Source: Marixanthomonas sp. SCSIO 43207
Lineage (GTDB): Bacteria > Bacteroidota > Bacteroidia > Flavobacteriales > Flavobacteriaceae
Length of the DNA: 64,000 nucleotides
NCBI RefSeq assembly: GCF_019904255.1
Contig: NZ_CP063203.1
Coordinates: forward strand, 1,116,001 to 1,180,000
Reading direction: 5' to 3'
Shown here: positions 15,223-56,702 of the stretch, piece after piece
Numbering within the stretch: the first letter of the stretch is position 1
How the letters are laid out: every line of letters begins with the position of its first letter
The notes under the pieces: model-generated
What the model saw: the letters and a program-made list of their open reading frames with translations, nothing else
Databases searched by the model: none
What the model was told of the DNA's origin: nothing
Translations under genes and position numbers: made by a program

Positions 15223-15260
15223 CACTTTAGAATCAGTCTAAATATTCCGAAAAAGATTAT

Positions 15261-16400
15261 ATGAAATTGAATAAAAAAGATATACTTAAAGCTTTAGAAA
15301 CCATTACGCTAGCCGGAGAAGGAAAAAATATGGTTGAAAGCGGTGCGGTTAAAAATGTAGTAACTTTTGCAGACGAAGTAATTGTAGATCTTACAGTTTC
15401 TACACCGGCCCTACATATTAAAAAAAGAGCCGAAGCAGATATCATAAAGACCATTCAAGAAAAGGTATCTGCAGATGCACAAGTAAAAGTAAATATTAAG
15501 GTTGAAGCACCTACCAAAAAGGAAAATCCAAATTTAATTAAAGGAAAACCCATAGCTGGTATTAAAAATATTGTTGCGGTAGCTTCAGGTAAAGGAGGCG
15601 TTGGTAAATCTACAGTTACTGCAAACCTAGCAGTAACGCTTTCAAAAATGGGCTTTAATGTAGGGGTGCTAGATGCAGATATTTATGGGCCATCAATACC
15701 GATAATGTTTGATGTTGCTATGGAAAAACCACTTTCGGTAAAGGTTGAAGGTAAAAGCAAGATGAAACCCATAGAAAACTATGGTGTAAAAGTTCTATCA
15801 ATAGGATTTTTTACAAAACCCGATCAAGCAGTTATTTGGAGAGGTCCTATGGCTGCAAAGGCATTAAATCAATTAATTTTTGATGCAAATTGGGGTGAAT
15901 TAGACTTTTTACTCGTAGATCTTCCACCGGGAACAGGAGATATACACTTAAGTATTATGCAGTCATTACCGCTTACAGGTTCTGTAGTGGTAAGTACACC
16001 TCAAAATGTAGCCTTAGCAGATGCTCGAAAGGGTGTTGCCATGTTTCAACAAGAAAATATACAAGTTCCTGTTTTAGGAATTATTGAAAATATGGCTTAT
16101 TTTACTCCTGAAGAATTACCCGAAAACAAATATTATATTTTTGGAAAAGAAGGAGCTAAAAACCTAGCTGAAGACCTAGATATTCCATTTTTGGGTGGTA
16201 TTCCGTTGGTGCAAAGTATACGAGAGTCTGGTGATGTAGGTCGCCCGGCAGCCTTGCAAACAGCAACCCCAACAGAACAAGCTTTTGAAACTGTAACAAA
16301 AAATGTGGTGGAGCAAACGGTACGCCGTAATGAAAATCTCCCCCCAACCGAGGCCATAAAGATTACAACGATGGCAGGTTGTAGTGCCGTTAAAAAATAA
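15261..16400 (+). CDS. mrp: Mrp/ApbC Fe-S cluster carrier ATPase
   Basis: A 379-residue scaffold/carrier protein thought to deliver Fe-S clusters to apoproteins. Residues 1-90 form the MIP18/DUF59 domain; the deviant Walker A ASGKGGVGKST lies around residues 108-118, followed by LDADIYGPS and LLVDLPPGTGD. A CxxC cluster motif is not visible in the usual place near the end; the sequence shows only isolated Cys including one in TMAGCSAVKK. One base separates its stop from the NfuA-like gene, supporting a shared Fe-S role. Confidence 0.94.
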   Translation: MKLNKKDILKALETITLAGEGKNMVESGAVKNVVTFADEVIVDLTVSTPALHIKKRAEADIIKTIQEKVSADAQVKVNIKVEAPTKKENPNLIKGKPIAGIKNIVAVASGKGGVGKSTVTANLAVTLSKMGFNVGVLDADIYGPSIPIMFDVAMEKPLSVKVEGKSKMKPIENYGVKVLSIGFFTKPDQAVIWRGPMAAKALNQLIFDANWGELDFLLVDLPPGTGDIHLSIMQSLPLTGSVVVSTPQNVALADARKGVAMFQQENIQVPVLGIIENMAYFTPEELPENKYYIFGKEGAKNLAEDLDIPFLGGIPLVQSIRESGDVGRPAALQTATPTEQAFETVTKNVVEQTVRRNENLPPTEAIKITTMAGCSAVKK

Positions 16401-47703: not shown

Positions 47704-48261
47704 ATGAGTTCAGAAAAAATAATCTTAGGGATTGATCCCGGTACAACTATTATGGGTTTTGGACTTATAAAAGTAGTTGGAAAAAAGATGCAGTTTATGC
47801 AATTGAATGAACTTCAGCTTAAAAAACACAGTGATCATTACGTAAAACTTAAACTTATTTTTGAACGTACCATTGAGCTTATTGACACGTATCATCCAGA
47901 TGAGATTGCTATTGAAGCACCTTTCTTTGGAAAAAATGTACAATCTATGCTTAAACTGGGAAGGGCTCAAGGCGTTGCGATGGCTGCCGGATTATCACGA
48001 CAAGTGCCTATTACAGAATATTCTCCAAAAAAAATAAAAATGGCAATTACCGGTAATGGAAATGCCAGCAAAGAACAAGTTGCAAAAATGTTACAAAGCA
48101 CGCTAGACTTAAAAACACTACCAAAAAACCTCGATAGTACAGATGGTCTTGCAGCAGCAGTTTGTCATTTTTATAATGAAGGCCGTATTGAAACAGGAAA
48201 AAGTTATAGCGGTTGGGCAGCTTTTGTAAAGCAGAATGAAGATAGAGTGGGCGACAAATAG
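47704..48261 (+). CDS. ruvC: Holliday-junction resolvase RuvC
   Basis: A 185-residue endonuclease that cuts Holliday junctions with RuvAB. Catalytic acids are in ILGIDPGTT, AIEAPFFGKN and the C-terminal LDSTDGLAAAVCH. Length is typical. Divergent from the LPG-type gene. The final codons form one arm of a strong hairpin. Confidence 0.95.
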   Translation: MSSEKIILGIDPGTTIMGFGLIKVVGKKMQFMQLNELQLKKHSDHYVKLKLIFERTIELIDTYHPDEIAIEAPFFGKNVQSMLKLGRAQGVAMAAGLSRQVPITEYSPKKIKMAITGNGNASKEQVAKMLQSTLDLKTLPKNLDSTDGLAAAVCHFYNEGRIETGKSYSGWAAFVKQNEDRVGDK

Positions 48262-48274
48262 CCGCCCACATTTT
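48247..48274. terminator. Terminator overlapping the 3' end of ruvC
   Basis: GTGGGCG (last ruvC codons) pairs with CGCCCAC, the stop codon lying in the nine-base loop, and ATTTTTATT follows. It can serve ruvC and, less well, convergent serS. Confidence 0.7.
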
Positions 48275-48276
48275 TA

Positions 48277-49548
48277 TTAGTTTATTATGTCAAAACCGCA
48301 ATATGGTACCAAAACTTCTGGTACTTTGATTCCGTCTGGGGTTTGATAATTTTCTAGAATTCCTGCCATTACTCGCGGCAATGCTAATGAACTTCCGTTT
48401 AAGGTGTGAGCTAGTTTATTGGTTCCGTCTTTGTCCTTAAAACGAAGTTTTAGTCTATTGGCTTGAAATGTTTCAAAATTTGATACAGAAGAAATTTCTA
48501 GCCACCGGTCTTGTGCAGTAGAAAATACTTCAAAGTCATAGGTTAGTGCTGCTGTAAAACCTAAATCACCGCCGCAAAGTCGTAAAATACGATACGGTAA
48601 TTTTAATTCACGCAATATAGTTTGTATGTGTTCAACCATCCCTTCAAGTGCTTTATAACTCGTTTCGGGATGTTCAACACGTACAATTTCAACTTTATCA
48701 AATTGATGCAACCTGTTTAAACCACGTACGTGAGCGCCATAACTTCCTGCTTCTCTTCTGAAACAAGGCGTATAACCGGTACAGGTTATAGGCAAATCAT
48801 TATGCATCAACAAATCATTGCGAAACATATTTGTTATAGGAACTTCAGAAGTAGGTATCATATACAAATCATCGTTTGTAACATGGTACATTTGTCCTTC
48901 TTTATCGGGTAATTGTCCGGTTCCGTAGCCTGACGCTTCATTTACCATTAATGGAACTTGATATTCGGTATATCCAGCATTTGTATTTTTATCTAAAAAA
49001 TATGTGATTAATGCACGTTGTAACCTTGCGCCTTTTCCTTTATAAATAGGAAAGCCGGCTCCAGTGACTTTTACACCCAATTCAAAATCAATTAAATCGT
49101 ATTTTTTTGCCAATTCCCAATGTGGCAATGAACCCTCATCAAGTGTTGGGATGTCACCTTCTTTAAACACTTCTTCGTTATCATCTTCATTATTTCCTGC
49201 CGGTACTCTTTCGTGTGGCACATTTGGTAAGCTGTATAACAGTTGTTGTAGCTTATCTTCGGCAGTGTTTAACTCTTCTTGAAGTGTTTTTGAGTCTTGT
49301 TTAAGCTGGGTAGTCTGTTCTTTTAAAGCATTTGCTTTTTCAGTTTCACCGTTTTTGAAAAGCATCCCAATTTCTTTGGAAAATTTATTGGACTGTGCTA
49401 ATGTTTCATCTAGTTTGGTTTGTGTGTTTCTGCGGTGTTCATCTGCATTGATCACAGCTTCTAGATCATCTTTTGCGTCAAGGCCTCTTTTGGCAAGCGC
49501 TTGGATAAATTCATCCTTTTTTTCGCGGATTTCGTGTACTTGTAACAT
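48277..49548 (-). CDS. serS: Seryl-tRNA synthetase
   Basis: A 423-residue class II synthetase. Residues 1-105 form the long antiparallel coiled coil that contacts the tRNA-Ser variable arm. The catalytic domain has motif 2 (CFRREAGSYGAHVRGLNRLHQF) split as FRREAGSYG and RGLNRLHQF, and motif 3 LNGSSLALPRVMAGILEN is compressed here as LALPRVMAGI. Standard length. Confidence 0.96.
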   Translation of the reverse strand: MLQVHEIREKKDEFIQALAKRGLDAKDDLEAVINADEHRRNTQTKLDETLAQSNKFSKEIGMLFKNGETEKANALKEQTTQLKQDSKTLQEELNTAEDKLQQLLYSLPNVPHERVPAGNNEDDNEEVFKEGDIPTLDEGSLPHWELAKKYDLIDFELGVKVTGAGFPIYKGKGARLQRALITYFLDKNTNAGYTEYQVPLMVNEASGYGTGQLPDKEGQMYHVTNDDLYMIPTSEVPITNMFRNDLLMHNDLPITCTGYTPCFRREAGSYGAHVRGLNRLHQFDKVEIVRVEHPETSYKALEGMVEHIQTILRELKLPYRILRLCGGDLGFTAALTYDFEVFSTAQDRWLEISSVSNFETFQANRLKLRFKDKDGTNKLAHTLNGSSLALPRVMAGILENYQTPDGIKVPEVLVPYCGFDIIN

Positions 49549-49596: not shown

Positions 49597-50940
49597 TTAA
49601 GGTTTTTTGTTGGTTTTCTTTTGAGCAAAACCTTCAGTAGAAGGTAAAATCCAATCGTGATGTTTAAAGTGATGCCAGTTTTCTGCAGCAAGATCTACAG
49701 TATTGTCAATAAGTTGGTAATAACTACCATTGTTTACTCTTATTTTTACATCCATGTAAACTTCTACATCTCTACCTTCTTCTTTTTCAGCAGCCTTAAT
49801 ACGCTGTGCTAATTGCCATAGCATATCTGGTTTTGTTTTTACAGAACGTTGTTGTTTTTTGGAAAGTAATTTATTATAAAAATATCGTTTCCTTTCATTT
49901 GAGTTTTTTTCTTTTGTCCACACAGTTAAGCTTCCGCCTTTACTACGTAGCATCATACGCCAACTTAATCTGTGACCTTCTTCGGTCCAGAGAACGTCGT
50001 CTTTAAAAAACCAGTGACGCAACGGTAATGCTATTTGAATAATAAAATAAACTGAAAATAATGAAACTAACACAGGTTTGTAGCTGGGTACAATTACTTC
50101 ACCTTTGGTGTATAATGTTTTCTTAGGAAGAAAGCGTTTTTGTAAGGTTTCTGCAGAAAAGAAAAAGAATGCAAAAGCCATTGACATATACGGGAAAATA
50201 CCAATTTGAAACACAAATGAGTTGAATAAATGAAAAAAGATTGAAGCAATAAAAGCTGCAAGCCTAGTTCGTTTCCAGAGTAGTAAAGGGACTATAAGCA
50301 AATCAAATAAAACACCTACATAAGCTATACACCAGTGTACCCACTTTAACTGTAAAAAATCACCTATTAACCAATAGTCACGTTTACCCCGCATAAATAA
50401 TTCGGCAACGCTGGCATCTAACCAGCCGGGATACCATTTTGCTATAGAGCCGTATGTATATACAATCCATACCTGTAATACAAAAACAAGTAAAACCCAT
50501 CGCGGCATTGATGGCGATTTTAAGTTTTGGTTTTGTTGTGCGTCTATAGAAAACCATCTGTTTGCAGGTAGAAAAACCATAAGCCAACATAGTAACATCA
50601 TTAAATAATAATGATTGTTGTATGATGATTTTTGCATTAAATAAACACAGGTCCACATAAGAGCATAACAAAACATGCTAAATCGATACTTATAGCCAAG
50701 CATGACTAAAATGCCAAAAGTACCCATCAATGCAAAATACCAATACATTAAATCACCTGGAAGAGGTTGTAAAAACTCAAAACCTATAAAGTTGAAAGTG
50801 AAATCTGGTTCAACCAAAGTACGTTTTACCCAACCGGTAGCAATAGCTCCAAATCCTTCAATAGCTATTAATGCGCCAAAAACTACTCGCCATAATACCA
50901 AGCCGGTATTATCAATATGTTTAAACAGAAATTTATTCAC
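49597..50940 (-). CDS. Vitamin-K-dependent gamma-carboxylase-like (HTTM) membrane protein
   Basis: A 447-residue protein with eight or so membrane helices and the HTTM fold. SSYNNHYYLMML contains His110, matching the NNH-x-YL motif of human gamma-glutamyl carboxylase (His160), and YGSIAKWYPGWL contains Lys168, matching its catalytic base Lys218; the spacing of 58 residues is the same. EGHRLSWRMMLRSK resembles the next conserved block, and a soluble C-terminal part follows. It may carboxylate Glu residues using reduced menaquinone. The start overlaps the end of ribF by eight bases. Confidence 0.8.
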   Translation of the reverse strand: MNKFLFKHIDNTGLVLWRVVFGALIAIEGFGAIATGWVKRTLVEPDFTFNFIGFEFLQPLPGDLMYWYFALMGTFGILVMLGYKYRFSMFCYALMWTCVYLMQKSSYNNHYYLMMLLCWLMVFLPANRWFSIDAQQNQNLKSPSMPRWVLLVFVLQVWIVYTYGSIAKWYPGWLDASVAELFMRGKRDYWLIGDFLQLKWVHWCIAYVGVLFDLLIVPLLLWKRTRLAAFIASIFFHLFNSFVFQIGIFPYMSMAFAFFFFSAETLQKRFLPKKTLYTKGEVIVPSYKPVLVSLFSVYFIIQIALPLRHWFFKDDVLWTEEGHRLSWRMMLRSKGGSLTVWTKEKNSNERKRYFYNKLLSKKQQRSVKTKPDMLWQLAQRIKAAEKEEGRDVEVYMDVKIRVNNGSYYQLIDNTVDLAAENWHHFKHHDWILPSTEGFAQKKTNKKP

Positions 50941-51865
50941 CGTTTTTTATAAAATTTCTAGCAAATGCCTCATCCTGTTGTATTGCTTTTTTTAAGGCTG
51001 CCATTCCTTCAAATGTTTCTTCATCACGAATGTGTGTGATAAATTCAATTTGAAGAGATTTGTTGTATAAGTTTTCGTTAAAATCTAAAAAATACGTCTC
51101 TATAGTTTTCTGTTTTCCTCCCACCGTTGGGTTTGTGCCAATACTTGTGATACCAAAAACCTCTTTTTGGTTTATAATGGCTTTCACTATATAAACGCCA
51201 TTTTTAGGTATTAACTTGTAAGACTCAAAGGGTTTTAAGTTTGCTGTAGGATACTCCAGTGTTCTTCCTATAGCCTTTCCTTCTACCACTGTTCCAGAAA
51301 TCATGAAAGGGTATCCTAAGTATTGATTGGCTGTTGTAATATCACCAACTTCTAGAGCCTTTCTTATTTTTGTAGAACTTACAGTGACTTCATCCAATTC
51401 TTGAGCTGTAATTTCCTCAACTTCAAAATCATACGTTTTGCCAAATTCTTTTAAATCAGATATATCTGCTGTGCGATTTCTGCCAAAACGATGATCATAA
51501 CCTATAATAACTTTTTTGGCTTTTAAGTTATTTACTAAAATATCACGCACATATTCAACAGCAGTTAAACGAGAAAATTCTTTAGTGAATGGATGAATAA
51601 TCAAATGATCCAGTCCGGTTTTTTCTAGAAGTTCCTTTTTTTCTGAAAGTGTATTAATTAATTGAATGTTTGAATCTTTCTGCAAAACCATTCTAGGATG
51701 CGGAAAAAAAGTAAGTAAAACAGCGTCTAGATTATCTTTTTTAGCTGTTTGAATTAAGCGATTCAAAATTGCTTTATGCCCTATGTGAACACCATCAAAA
51801 GTACCAATGGTTACCACACAAGCTTTGTTATTATCATATGTTGAAGCTGAAGTATATTCTTGCAC
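50933..51865 (-). CDS. ribF: Bifunctional riboflavin kinase/FAD synthetase
   Basis: A 310-residue enzyme making FMN and FAD from riboflavin. The FAD-synthetase half has GTFDGVHIGH at residues 21-30 and VIIGYDHRFGRNR; the kinase half starts around residue 180 with GKAIGRTLEYPTANL. Standard length. It is one base downstream of pth and overlaps the gamma-carboxylase-like gene, so the three form one unit. Confidence 0.95.
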   Translation of the reverse strand: MQEYTSASTYDNNKACVVTIGTFDGVHIGHKAILNRLIQTAKKDNLDAVLLTFFPHPRMVLQKDSNIQLINTLSEKKELLEKTGLDHLIIHPFTKEFSRLTAVEYVRDILVNNLKAKKVIIGYDHRFGRNRTADISDLKEFGKTYDFEVEEITAQELDEVTVSSTKIRKALEVGDITTANQYLGYPFMISGTVVEGKAIGRTLEYPTANLKPFESYKLIPKNGVYIVKAIINQKEVFGITSIGTNPTVGGKQKTIETYFLDFNENLYNKSLQIEFITHIRDEETFEGMAALKKAIQQDEAFARNFIKNGE

Positions 51866-51866
51866 G

Positions 51867-52496
51867 TTATGTTCCGTTAAAAGTGTTCATGGTATTGTTA
51901 ACTCCTGCTAATCCAAAAGACTCAATTGCGTTACCGGCTTTTTCTAGTCGCTCTGGAAGCTTTTTTTCTTCGGTTTCATCCCATTCTCCCAAAACATAAT
52001 CTACTTGGCGCCCTTTGCTGAACTCATCACTAATGCCAAATCTAAATCTATTATACTTGTTGGTTTGCAAAGTATTTTGAATGTCTTTCAATCCATTGTG
52101 CCCTCCATCACTTCCTTTTGTTTTAATGCGAAGTGTACCAAAAGGTAAATTTAAATCATCGGTAATAACCAGTAAATTTTCTAACGGAATTTTTTCTTTA
52201 TCCAGCCAATAGCGAACGGCTTTTCCGCTTAAATTCATAAAGGTGCTGGGTTTAAGAAGTAAAAATGTTCTTCCTTTCTTTTTATGAACTGTAATATCTC
52301 CTAGTTTTTCGGTTTGCCAGGTAAGACTGTTTTCTTCGGCAAGCTTGTCTAAAACTTTAAAACCAATGTTATGGCGTGTATTATGATATTTTGGCCCAAT
52401 GTTTCCTAAGCCGACTATTAAAAATTTTTTCATGGGATCGCCTTCTGTGTAGGGGTTGCTAGTAGTTTTAAAAAGGTTTTTTAAAAAAGACCACAT
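51867..52496 (-). CDS. pth: Peptidyl-tRNA hydrolase
   Basis: A 209-residue enzyme that frees tRNA from drop-off peptidyl-tRNA. IVGLGNIGPKYHNTRHNIGF contains the catalytic His42, and DDLNLPFGTLR and KGSDGGHNGLK follow. It has an N-terminal extension of 21 residues before MKKFLIVGLGN; the ATG at 52433 would give the usual length. Both starts are possible. Follows rplY with the terminator between them. Confidence 0.94.
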   Translation of the reverse strand: MWSFLKNLFKTTSNPYTEGDPMKKFLIVGLGNIGPKYHNTRHNIGFKVLDKLAEENSLTWQTEKLGDITVHKKKGRTFLLLKPSTFMNLSGKAVRYWLDKEKIPLENLLVITDDLNLPFGTLRIKTKGSDGGHNGLKDIQNTLQTNKYNRFRFGISDEFSKGRQVDYVLGEWDETEEKKLPERLEKAGNAIESFGLAGVNNTMNTFNGT

Positions 52497-52528
52497 TTCT
52501 TTGTATCGGTTTCAGCAGTAAAAATAAA

Positions 52529-52558
52529 AAAAGCATCCCAAATGAGTGGGATGCTTTT
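52529..52558 (-). terminator. Terminator of rplY
   Basis: AAAGCATCCCA and TGGGATGCTTT form an 11-base stem with a six-base loop; the minus-strand side is followed by T residues. Confidence 0.85.
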
Positions 52559-52581
52559 TATATATCTTAAGAAAGATGAAT

Positions 52582-54526: not shown

Positions 54527-55237
54527 TTATTTTTTTATAAACTTTTCAATTGCCGTTCTGTTTTCCGAAACAATCTCAATAAAATACAACCCGTTGGAAA
54601 GCGCCGAAACGCTCAATTGATTGATATTTCCCTTTTCTGAAAGTACCAATTGCCCGTTAACTGAAAATATAGAAACTTCTTGAATGGTATTATTTCCTGA
54701 GGTGATAAAAAGCGTTTCAGTGGCTGGGTTGGGATATATGGATACATCAAGCTTGTTGTGTTCAGGAATAGATAAGCGTGTATCGTAGTATGTTGCTATA
54801 TTACCTTCTTGATCGATAACATCCAACTCTATAACTCCTCCGTTGCCATCGTCAACGTGGGCTATTGTATAATTAAATGTGTAGGGCTCTGCTTCTCTAA
54901 AAAAGAAATCATATAAATAAGCTTGTTCTAACTCGCAATAATCATCACAGCCAAATAATGTAATAGTGGGGATTTGGGTGGTAAACGTGTTATTGTCAAA
55001 AGTAGGGCTTGCGGAAAATGTTTCACTAGTAATAAAAGTTGAAATATAATAACCGTCACTTGTTTCGTCAAAGATTATTTGTTGGCTATACAATGGATCA
55101 TCTACAGGAACATTATAGTTTACACTATCAAAAGTAAAGCTCTGTAAATACCAATTGTTTTCAAATAGAACAGGGTTTTGTGCTACTGATAAAAAACTTA
55201 TTAATAAGACTGTTAAAAAAAGTAGTAGTTTTTTCAT
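54527..55237 (-). CDS. T9SS-secreted lipocalin/META-like protein, array member 1
   Basis: A 236-residue secreted protein, last gene of a four-gene array. Signal peptide to about residue 19 (SFLSVAQ), then an N-terminal LFENNWYLQSFTFDSV start shared with its neighbours, a FGCDDYCE cysteine pair, and the type A sorting domain VSIYPNPATETLFI to IEKFIKK. It is the most diverged of the four at the C-terminus. Function unknown. Confidence 0.82.
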   Translation of the reverse strand: MKKLLLFLTVLLISFLSVAQNPVLFENNWYLQSFTFDSVNYNVPVDDPLYSQQIIFDETSDGYYISTFITSETFSASPTFDNNTFTTQIPTITLFGCDDYCELEQAYLYDFFFREAEPYTFNYTIAHVDDGNGGVIELDVIDQEGNIATYYDTRLSIPEHNKLDVSIYPNPATETLFITSGNNTIQEVSIFSVNGQLVLSEKGNINQLSVSALSNGLYFIEIVSENRTAIEKFIKK

Positions 55238-55239
55238 AA

Positions 55240-55974
55240 TTATTGCTTTATAAATTTTTGAATTGCTGTTCCATTTTCTGAAGTAATCTCCACAAAATAC
55301 AACCCGTTAGAAAGTGACGATACATCTAGTTGATTGACGTTTTCTTTTTCTGAAAGTACCAACTTCCTGTTAATGGAATAAACAGCAATTTTTTCAATTA
55401 AATCAGTTTCTGAAGTGATAAAAAGTGTTTCAATGGCTGGGTTTGGGTATAGTTTAAAAGAGTTTTCAGAAAAATTTGTAATATTTAAAACAGACTCAGT
55501 TCCATAAATCGCTTGGTCTCCATTTGCATCTGTAATAACCAATGTTGGATTGTCATTTTCATCAATGCCTAATTCATAATCAAAAGTCTTTGAAATAGGG
55601 GTTGAGTTTACTCCCATATAAAACTCATTAAGCATATTTCCGAATATCCCGCAAGGGGTAGTATTAGAGCTGCAAATACCATCAGTTAGGCTAACCCAAT
55701 TATTATTTGTGATAAATTCTTGTTCCCCCATAGTAAAAGTAATCTCTGTACTGGGCATAGTTAAAGCAGACATAAAAAATAACGTGTAGATGTCATCAGA
55801 TTCTGAATAATAAATATTTAGTTTGAAGTTTGCTCCAGTATTTGATGGAATATGATCTTCTCCATCAATAATTAAATTTTGGGTAATCCATTCTGTTTCT
55901 AACAAAACAGTTTCTTGGGCAAAAATTGTTGCACAAGTACTTAGTGTAAGTAAAAAGAGTAGCGTTTTTTTCAT
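55240..55974 (-). CDS. T9SS-secreted lipocalin/META-like protein, array member 2
   Basis: A 244-residue secreted protein. Signal peptide to about residue 19 (ATIFAQE), LLETEWITQNLIIDG start, a cysteine pair CSSNTTPCGIFGN, and a sorting domain (FKLYPNPAIETLFI, LSNGLYFVEI, AIQKFIKQ) nearly identical to members 3 and 4. Separated from both neighbours by exactly two bases. Confidence 0.82.
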   Translation of the reverse strand: MKKTLLFLLTLSTCATIFAQETVLLETEWITQNLIIDGEDHIPSNTGANFKLNIYYSESDDIYTLFFMSALTMPSTEITFTMGEQEFITNNNWVSLTDGICSSNTTPCGIFGNMLNEFYMGVNSTPISKTFDYELGIDENDNPTLVITDANGDQAIYGTESVLNITNFSENSFKLYPNPAIETLFITSETDLIEKIAVYSINRKLVLSEKENVNQLDVSSLSNGLYFVEITSENGTAIQKFIKQ

Positions 55975-55976
55975 GC

Positions 55977-56702
55977 TTATTGTTTTATAAATTTTTGAAT
56001 CACTGTTCCATTTTCTGAAGTAATTTCAACAAAATACAACCCGTTAGAAAGTGACGATACATCTAGTTGATTGACGTTCTCTTTTTCTAAAAGCACCAAG
56101 TTTCCGTTAATGGAATAGACAGCAATTTTTTCAATTAAATCAGTTTCTGAAGTGATAAAAAGCGTTTCAGTGGCTGGGTTTGGGTATACTCTAAGGTTGG
56201 TAGCAACAAAACTTGTAGTAGATAACAACCGTTCGTTACCGTATTGGGCAACATCGCTATTCTCGTTAGTAACTGTTAGTGTTTGTGTCTCGTCTTCATT
56301 AATGGTAAGAGTATAGTTTAAAGCGGTTAAAATGGTGTCATAATAATAGTCTGCGTGCATACCGTAGATTTGACTACAAGGACCTTCAGGACCATCAAGA
56401 CAGGTTTGAAGTGGTAAACACACAATAGAATTAGGGAGCTGAAATGAAGTTGGATTTGTAAAAAAACTTACATATTCAAATGAGCAAGATACATTTAGAG
56501 GGTCTGCAATATAAAAAATAACACCTTCATTAGTTTGATTTAACTGTATATCTGGATAATATCCATAATCGGTTGGCGAATAGTCTACATTATCTATTGT
56601 TATACTATGTAGATACCAGGTTTTAAATAAATCTGGGTTAGGTTCTTGACTATGGTTTTTAAAGGTTATTAACAAGAAACAAAGAAGTATCAATTTTTTC
56701 AT
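55977..56702 (-). CDS. T9SS-secreted lipocalin/META-like protein, array member 3
   Basis: A 241-residue secreted protein. Signal peptide to about residue 18 (KNHSQEP), DLFKTWYLHSITIDNV start, a cysteine-containing VCLPLQTCLDGPEGPC stretch and the shared sorting domain (LRVYPNPATETLFI to KFIKQ). Two bases from each neighbour. Function unknown. Confidence 0.82.
   Translation of the reverse strand: MKKLILLCFLLITFKNHSQEPNPDLFKTWYLHSITIDNVDYSPTDYGYYPDIQLNQTNEGVIFYIADPLNVSCSFEYVSFFTNPTSFQLPNSIVCLPLQTCLDGPEGPCSQIYGMHADYYYDTILTALNYTLTINEDETQTLTVTNENSDVAQYGNERLLSTTSFVATNLRVYPNPATETLFITSETDLIEKIAVYSINGNLVLLEKENVNQLDVSSLSNGLYFVEITSENGTVIQKFIKQ

Follow-up and report, generated by a model that had tools for sequence, protein, structure and literature searches.

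Gene organization and domain composition

The window, by which is meant the whole stretch of 64,000 nucleotides from Marixanthomonas sp. SCSIO 43207 that was analysed, encodes a 447-residue VKGC-family membrane protein on its minus strand (50940–49597), starting with GTG and identified from its open reading frame, Pfam matches and a phmmer alignment. The first-pass annotation, which gave no strand, had described a VKGC-like membrane protein, and this description was borne out by both Pfam domains. The HTTM domain (PF05090; residues 6–263, positions 50152–50925, minus strand), the membrane part with the quinone pocket, was matched at E 1.9e-70 and 237.9 bits, and the VKGC lumenal domain (PF22777; residues 288–435, positions 49636–50079, minus strand), expected to be periplasmic, at E 4.4e-44 and 150.5 bits; for both domains the cut-off is 27.7 bits. 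These scores are far beyond chance, and the protein belongs to the known VKGC family. No family was assigned to it in a search of NCBIfam.

The gene lies in a minus-strand unit opened by pth (peptidyl-tRNA hydrolase, 51867–52496), followed by ribF (riboflavin kinase/FAD synthetase, 50933–51865), the VKGC gene and serS (seryl-tRNA synthetase, 48277–49548), the names of the three neighbours being read from their sequences. pth and ribF are separated by 1 bp, ribF and the VKGC gene overlap by 8 bp, and serS starts 48 bp downstream, so that the ORF coordinates agree with the unit with ribF and pth proposed earlier. By pattern match, the unit is flanked at both ends by terminator-like hairpins on the minus strand, one between rplY and pth (52528–52559) and one after serS (48247–48269); the region holds 6 such hairpins against 3.4 (sd 2.1) in shuffled sequence, which is weakly above the shuffles. 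The VKGC gene is under purifying selection, with a dN of 0.086 and a dS of about 2.2 against its homologue in locus L004; dS was saturated against L003, L007 and L044. Elsewhere in the window, at 54527–56702, three tandem minus-strand ORFs of 236–244 residues share near-identical C-terminal ends resembling a sorting domain.

Conservation of active-site residues

Human GGCX (γ-glutamyl carboxylase) is the vitamin K enzyme by which clotting factors are activated. Among solved structures, eight distinct GGCX sequences were the only relatives found by phmmer at E ≤ 1, the best being 9wfn_A (E 1.2e-29). Human numbering was taken from the full-length entry 13ib_A, in which residue 58 corresponds to residue 8 of the query, and 103 of 403 positions were identical in the aligned human segments. 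The NNH motif at residues 108–110 and the YGSIAKW motif with K168 are both present in the ORF, and the earlier proposal that His110 and Lys168 match human His160 and Lys218, each pair 58 residues apart, was confirmed by an alignment with no gap between the two residues. The stretch EGHRLSWRMM (residues 321–330), previously taken for the next conserved block, aligns with human 393–402, including Y395, S398, W399, M401 and M402.

According to the portions available of a 2025 study of human GGCX (PMC12589487), the naphthoquinone head group is bound by F286, F294, F299, H160, V210, M401 and W223, the Glu side chain is held by N159, H160 and Y395, the substrate backbone is held by N158 and R436, and K218 acts as the base; K217A impairs substrate binding, not catalysis. 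When these residues were compared by alignment, all seven of the head pocket as listed there were identical in the window protein, which is consistent with menaquinone as its cofactor. N108-N109-H110 (50611–50619, minus strand) correspond to N158-N159-H160, of the Glu pocket and transition state, and K168 (50437–50439, minus strand) to the base that deprotonates the hydroquinone. With respect to the Glu and backbone contacts named in those portions, N158, N159 and H160 are kept, Y395 is replaced by H323 (49972–49974, minus strand) and R436 by Ser366. K217 corresponds to Ala167, and Cys99 and Cys450, which form a disulphide in the human enzyme, to Phe and Arg. Other residues in common are W223, S398, W399, M402, D442 and Q446; for the isoprenyl-tail tunnel (V254, V255), two alignments of the window protein disagree.

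Predicted structure and membrane topology

An AlphaFold2 model built on a 52-row orthologue alignment had a pLDDT of 78.8 and a pTM of 0.76, with pLDDT below 50 at residues 44–60, 104–107 and 315–331. The last two segments are catalytic loops, so the model does not confirm the geometry of the active site. All 16 Foldseek matches in the PDB at E ≤ 0.001 were human GGCX (TMq 0.60–0.80), with one GGCX match at E 8.9e-19 and TMq 0.78. VIA-align gave Z scores of 15.4–24.8 for these 16 matches and 9.0 for the next unrelated chain; on 9wfc, 417 residues were aligned (Z 24.8, rmsd 3.8). The window protein is thus predicted to have a GGCX-like fold, modelled weakly at the active-site loops. Model residues 1–447 align to chain residues 51–522, so that the protein represents two thirds of GGCX, counted from the N terminus, and lacks what lies beyond about residue 522, namely the arch together with the C-terminal portion of the propeptide-binding region.

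When the helices of the model were used and a cytoplasmic N terminus was assumed from GGCX, 12 Arg/Lys were counted in the 69 residues of loops expected inside and 5 in the 63 residues of loops expected outside, the C-terminal domain being left out. This excess on the inside is consistent with an active site facing the periplasm, just as that of GGCX faces the ER lumen.

A ribF-linked VKGC subfamily

A scan of genome contigs yielded 67 loci, all of which encode a VKGC of the window type (49–88% identity in the best segment), the nearest relatives being found in Marixanthomonas and other Flavobacteriaceae. ribF lies directly upstream of the VKGC gene in all 67, and serS lies downstream in 65; the remaining two loci are cut at a contig end, within the VKGC gene or shortly past it. 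The pairing of ribF with VKGC outlasts the rest of the gene order, since pth was not found upstream in 8 loci with upstream sequence (L052, L053, L056, L058, L059, L061, L063 and L066) and lies kilobases away in L060 and L064. Between pth and ribF, seven loci (L100–L103, L105, L106 and L108) carry a gene on the opposite strand for a large protein that by eye resembles a reprolysin-like protease.

Across 115 ribF-type rows (in this comparison the 30 rows L069–L098 partly repeat the same genes), the equivalents of H160, N159, K218, W223, F286 and F299 are present without exception, as is the NNH motif, and F294 is present in 109. These rows also share N158, N290 and Ala217, with His395 and M401 in 114 and the remaining row truncated before these positions. 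This residue signature, together with the gene linkage, defines a ribF-linked VKGC subfamily, to which the window protein belongs, having ribF directly upstream and the equivalents of N158, N290, H395 and M401.

Two VKGC subfamilies in the Bacteroidota

The VKGC lumenal domain was matched in 69 of 296 genomes drawn from the phylum and, with both subfamilies counted, in 192 of 249 Flavobacteriaceae genomes; PF22777 matched none of 14 control genomes and HTTM matched three, Bacillus subtilis among them. Neighbourhoods were compared at 100 loci, 60 from the phylum draw (L099–L158) and 40 from the family search (L191–L230), the latter picked among listed matches that scored within the ribF-type range and so not a random sample; species may overlap between these draws and the 67-locus set. 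ribF was adjacent at 48 of the 100 loci, an imelysin and/or TonB receptor gene at 44, and neither at 8. At all 48 loci classed as ribF type, ribF is directly upstream, which amounts to 10 of 10 loci in L099–L108 and 38 of the 40 family loci, the exceptions being L194 (imelysin type) and L206 (neither). At least two VKGC subfamilies are thus present in the Bacteroidota, the first linked to ribF and the second residing in an imelysin operon. The 44 imelysin-type rows have L158, T290, V401 and Tyr or Phe at 395, where the window protein has N108, N240, M329 and H323. His at 395 is also found in L231, L232, L233 and 5 of the 8 unclassified rows.

A tree was built by a quick method from 59 rows, comprising 24 of the ribF type including the window protein and 22 of the 44 imelysin-type rows. 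The ribF type forms one side of a branch with an SH-aLRT of 77, adjoined at 99 by a plasmid row from Persicobacter (L231), and the imelysin rows are contained in a group of 25 rows (support 99), of which L137, L206 and L234 are the other members. Human GGCX sits on an end branch of 3.07, and its placement is not resolved.

Some loci stand apart from these patterns. At L206 (3678–5048), a lone VKGC that groups with the imelysin clade has Ser in place of N159, H160 and F286 and retains K218; it may be either a natural active-site variant or a decayed copy. Just upstream of two unclassified VKGCs, L113 (5407–6132) and L116 (4279–6285) encode acidic proteins that look secreted. One has a run of Asp at its C-terminal end and the other has such runs internally; these proteins could be VKGC substrates or a chance occurrence.

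Probable iron regulation of the imelysin operon

The order DUF4856–imelysin–VKGC–TonB receptor was found at 37 of the 60 phylum loci (for example L126, L130 and L123), with an extra ORF inside it in L150, the Pfam names being assigned on one example of each operon gene. In the table seen of PMC5609570, the Riemerella anatipestifer genes RAYM_09779–09794 (TonB receptor, VKGC, imelysin and a hypothetical protein) are listed as Fur-regulated. For the VKGC gene (RAYM_09784), that table gives low-iron ratios of 2.64 for the wild type and 2.77 for the fur mutant, with a ratio of 1.39 for the fur mutant over the wild type in the presence of iron; from these values, the iron response is clear and Fur dependence weak.

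Unit starts were scored with the 19-base Fur-box consensus given in that source, over 300 bp upstream and 30 bp of the unit start, and with 20 simple base shuffles each; the start scored for the ribF type was ribF at 41 loci and pth at 7. A Fur-box-like site (at least 15 of 19 bases) was found at 37 of 44 imelysin-type loci (mean best score 15.7, against 12.0 for shuffled sequence) and at 1 of 48 ribF-type loci (12.4 against 12.5). On these predicted sites, the two VKGC types thus appear to be regulated differently, and the imelysin operon is likely an iron-uptake system that includes a carboxylase. Fur control of the window unit was considered and rejected, as no signal was seen and ribF-type units score like shuffles. 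Imelysin had no match in the window's genome by profile search, and neither an imelysin nor a TonB receptor gene is adjacent to the VKGC gene among the ORFs of the window. The only Fur-box-like matches in the window come from one palindromic 19-mer (15225–15243, both strands, 3 mismatches), situated 17 bp upstream of an ORF (15261–16400) named by eye as an Mrp/ApbC-like ATPase; 0.2 matches were expected by chance, and 4 of 100 shuffles had at least two.

Quinone recycling and candidate substrates

The window's genome (2.96 Mb, one contig) holds one HTTM gene and gave no match to VKOR (PF07884), a profile that matched 3 of the 14 control genomes. VKOR was matched in 36 of the 249 Flavobacteriaceae genomes, mostly in frames of about 500–600 residues, and co-occurred with VKGC in 30. 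No association between the two was seen, as VKGC is matched in 30 of the 36 VKOR-positive genomes and in 192 of all 249. Since 162 of the 192 VKGC-positive genomes had no VKOR match, an epoxide, if the window enzyme makes one, would be handled other than by VKOR.

No candidate substrate gene was found beside the window VKGC gene, its neighbours being cytosolic housekeeping genes. Among the partner proteins of the imelysin operon, no conserved Glu-rich stretch of Gla type was found; Glu columns conserved at 90% or more are scattered. The TonB receptor has 8 of them (42 rows), imelysin 2 (40 rows, after one of 41 was left out because of its length) and DUF4856 2 (38 rows).

Discussion

From the observed fold family, residues, subfamily, genomic setting and lack of a VKOR match, we infer that the window gene probably, though far from certainly, encodes an active, periplasm-facing carboxylase that depends on menaquinol, acts on some exported substrate and works without a VKOR cycle. 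Such a protein would be a vitamin K-dependent carboxylase of minimal size that is still catalytically competent, with an HTTM core of nine helices lying in the inner membrane and a periplasmic lumenal domain closing over the site. Menaquinol supplied by the respiratory pool would enter the pocket of F236, F244, F249, V160, W173, M329 and H110 and be deprotonated by K168, and the oxygenated quinol would become a strong base. This base would take a proton from the γ-carbon of a Glu in an exported protein held by N108, N109, H110 and H323, and addition of CO2 would presumably yield Gla. The menaquinone epoxide, not being recycled by VKOR, may be reduced by a different enzyme, or new synthesis may make up for it.

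Counted in favour of a carboxylase are the Pfam domains, the GGCX fold, the conserved residues, the complete head pocket, the selection on the gene, the Arg/Lys distribution and the distribution of the family. Counted against it are the changes Y395 to His, R436 to Ser and K217 to Ala, the missing propeptide region and arch, the lack of a VKOR match, of an adjacent substrate gene and of a conserved Gla-like stretch in the sister operon, the low pLDDT of the active-site loops, and the altered activity reported for a Leptospira homologue. Much of the first-pass reading of a menaquinone-dependent Glu carboxylase has stood (the family, the catalytic residues, the conserved block and the linkage to ribF and pth), and menaquinone is consistent with the data. 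Gla as the product is not settled, because Y395 is a His, R436 is not kept, the C-terminal third, which in GGCX completes the recognition of the propeptide, is absent and VKOR is not matched.

The same base chemistry could serve a menaquinol oxygenase or epoxidase that carboxylates no protein Glu, with the quinone epoxide or the consumption of O2 being what matters, redox control being one example. Conservation is stricter in the head pocket and at the base than among the residues that hold Glu, where Y395 is His and R436 variable; the propeptide region is absent and no substrate gene is nearby, and the linkage to ribF may point the same way, since flavoenzymes such as quinone reductases draw on the RibF product. 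The lumenal domain is nevertheless kept, and N158, N159 and H160, described as substrate-holding in the portions seen of the human work, are invariant in all 115 ribF-type rows, for which reason we regard an oxygenase as unlikely. It is more doubtful still that the enzyme carboxylates or deprotonates a target other than peptide Glu, such as a lipid, a small molecule or another residue, in a pocket reshaped by H323: His at 395 does mark the whole ribF type, as well as L231–L233 and 5 of 8 unclassified rows, against Tyr or Phe in the imelysin type, but NNH is identical to the human motif and no candidate small-molecule pathway adjoins the gene. A non-catalytic HTTM protein, its residues kept for structure only, is very improbable, for although the family can decay (as in L206, with Ser at 159, 160 and 286, yet K218 kept), H160, K218 and the head pocket are invariant or nearly so in the ribF type down to 49% identity, and the window gene is under purifying selection.

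A wider and distinctly tentative picture, which we hold to be possible rather than probable, is that of a hitherto unrecognised, menaquinol-fed γ-carboxylation system of the Bacteroidota without VKOR and with two branches. One would be controlled by Fur, its VKGC modifying Glu of imelysin, the DUF4856 lipoprotein or the TonB receptor into metal ligands for iron uptake. The other, that of the window, would be constitutive and coupled to ribF, with a His-containing Glu pocket, and would act on an envelope protein in most Flavobacteriaceae. The residue signatures and operons of the two subfamilies give direct tests of bacterial Gla formation, and the imelysin branch suggests which proteins might be substrates, with low iron as the inducing condition. 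With the ribF branch, the chemistry of the base and Glu pocket could be studied in a small, propeptide-free enzyme, apart from the clotting system; if active, this enzyme would show carboxylation without a VKOR cycle.

A Leptospira VKGC homologue reportedly has altered activity, and no paper on it was found in the open-access library searched. Among the matches listed there, with subscription journals mostly outside coverage, no study of the ribF-linked type was found, and the table in PMC5609570 was the only source found for the imelysin type; the portions available of PMC9146348, PMC7567364 and PMC9478572 contained nothing on bacterial VKGC. New here are the ribF-linked subfamily, the way it contrasts with a sister operon linked to iron, and the absence of VKOR.

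Compared with human GGCX (PDB 9bvk, 9wfn, 9l6q and others), the window protein shares the HTTM core and the first part of the lumenal domain, its predicted fold matching over its whole length and stopping at about human residue 522 of 758. It differs from vertebrate-type GGCX in lacking the full propeptide-binding region, the arch, Tyr395 and Lys217, and from the vertebrate vitamin K cycle in that VKOR is not matched in its genome. HTTM-only proteins, such as the HTTM match of Bacillus subtilis, have the membrane domain in common without the lumenal domain. Unclassified Bacteroidota and plasmid VKGCs (L111–L116, L232 from Bernardetia and L233 from Paracoccus) likewise have H160, N159 and K218, and His at 395 wherever the alignment reaches that position, but differ in their neighbours and mostly in having Leu158, their placement on long branches being unsure. 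The VKGC of the imelysin operon differs in Leu158, Thr290, Val401 and Tyr/Phe395, in its linkage to DUF4856, imelysin and a TonB receptor, and often in a Fur-box-like site, while sharing with the window protein the same two domains, H160, N159, K218 and Ala at 217.
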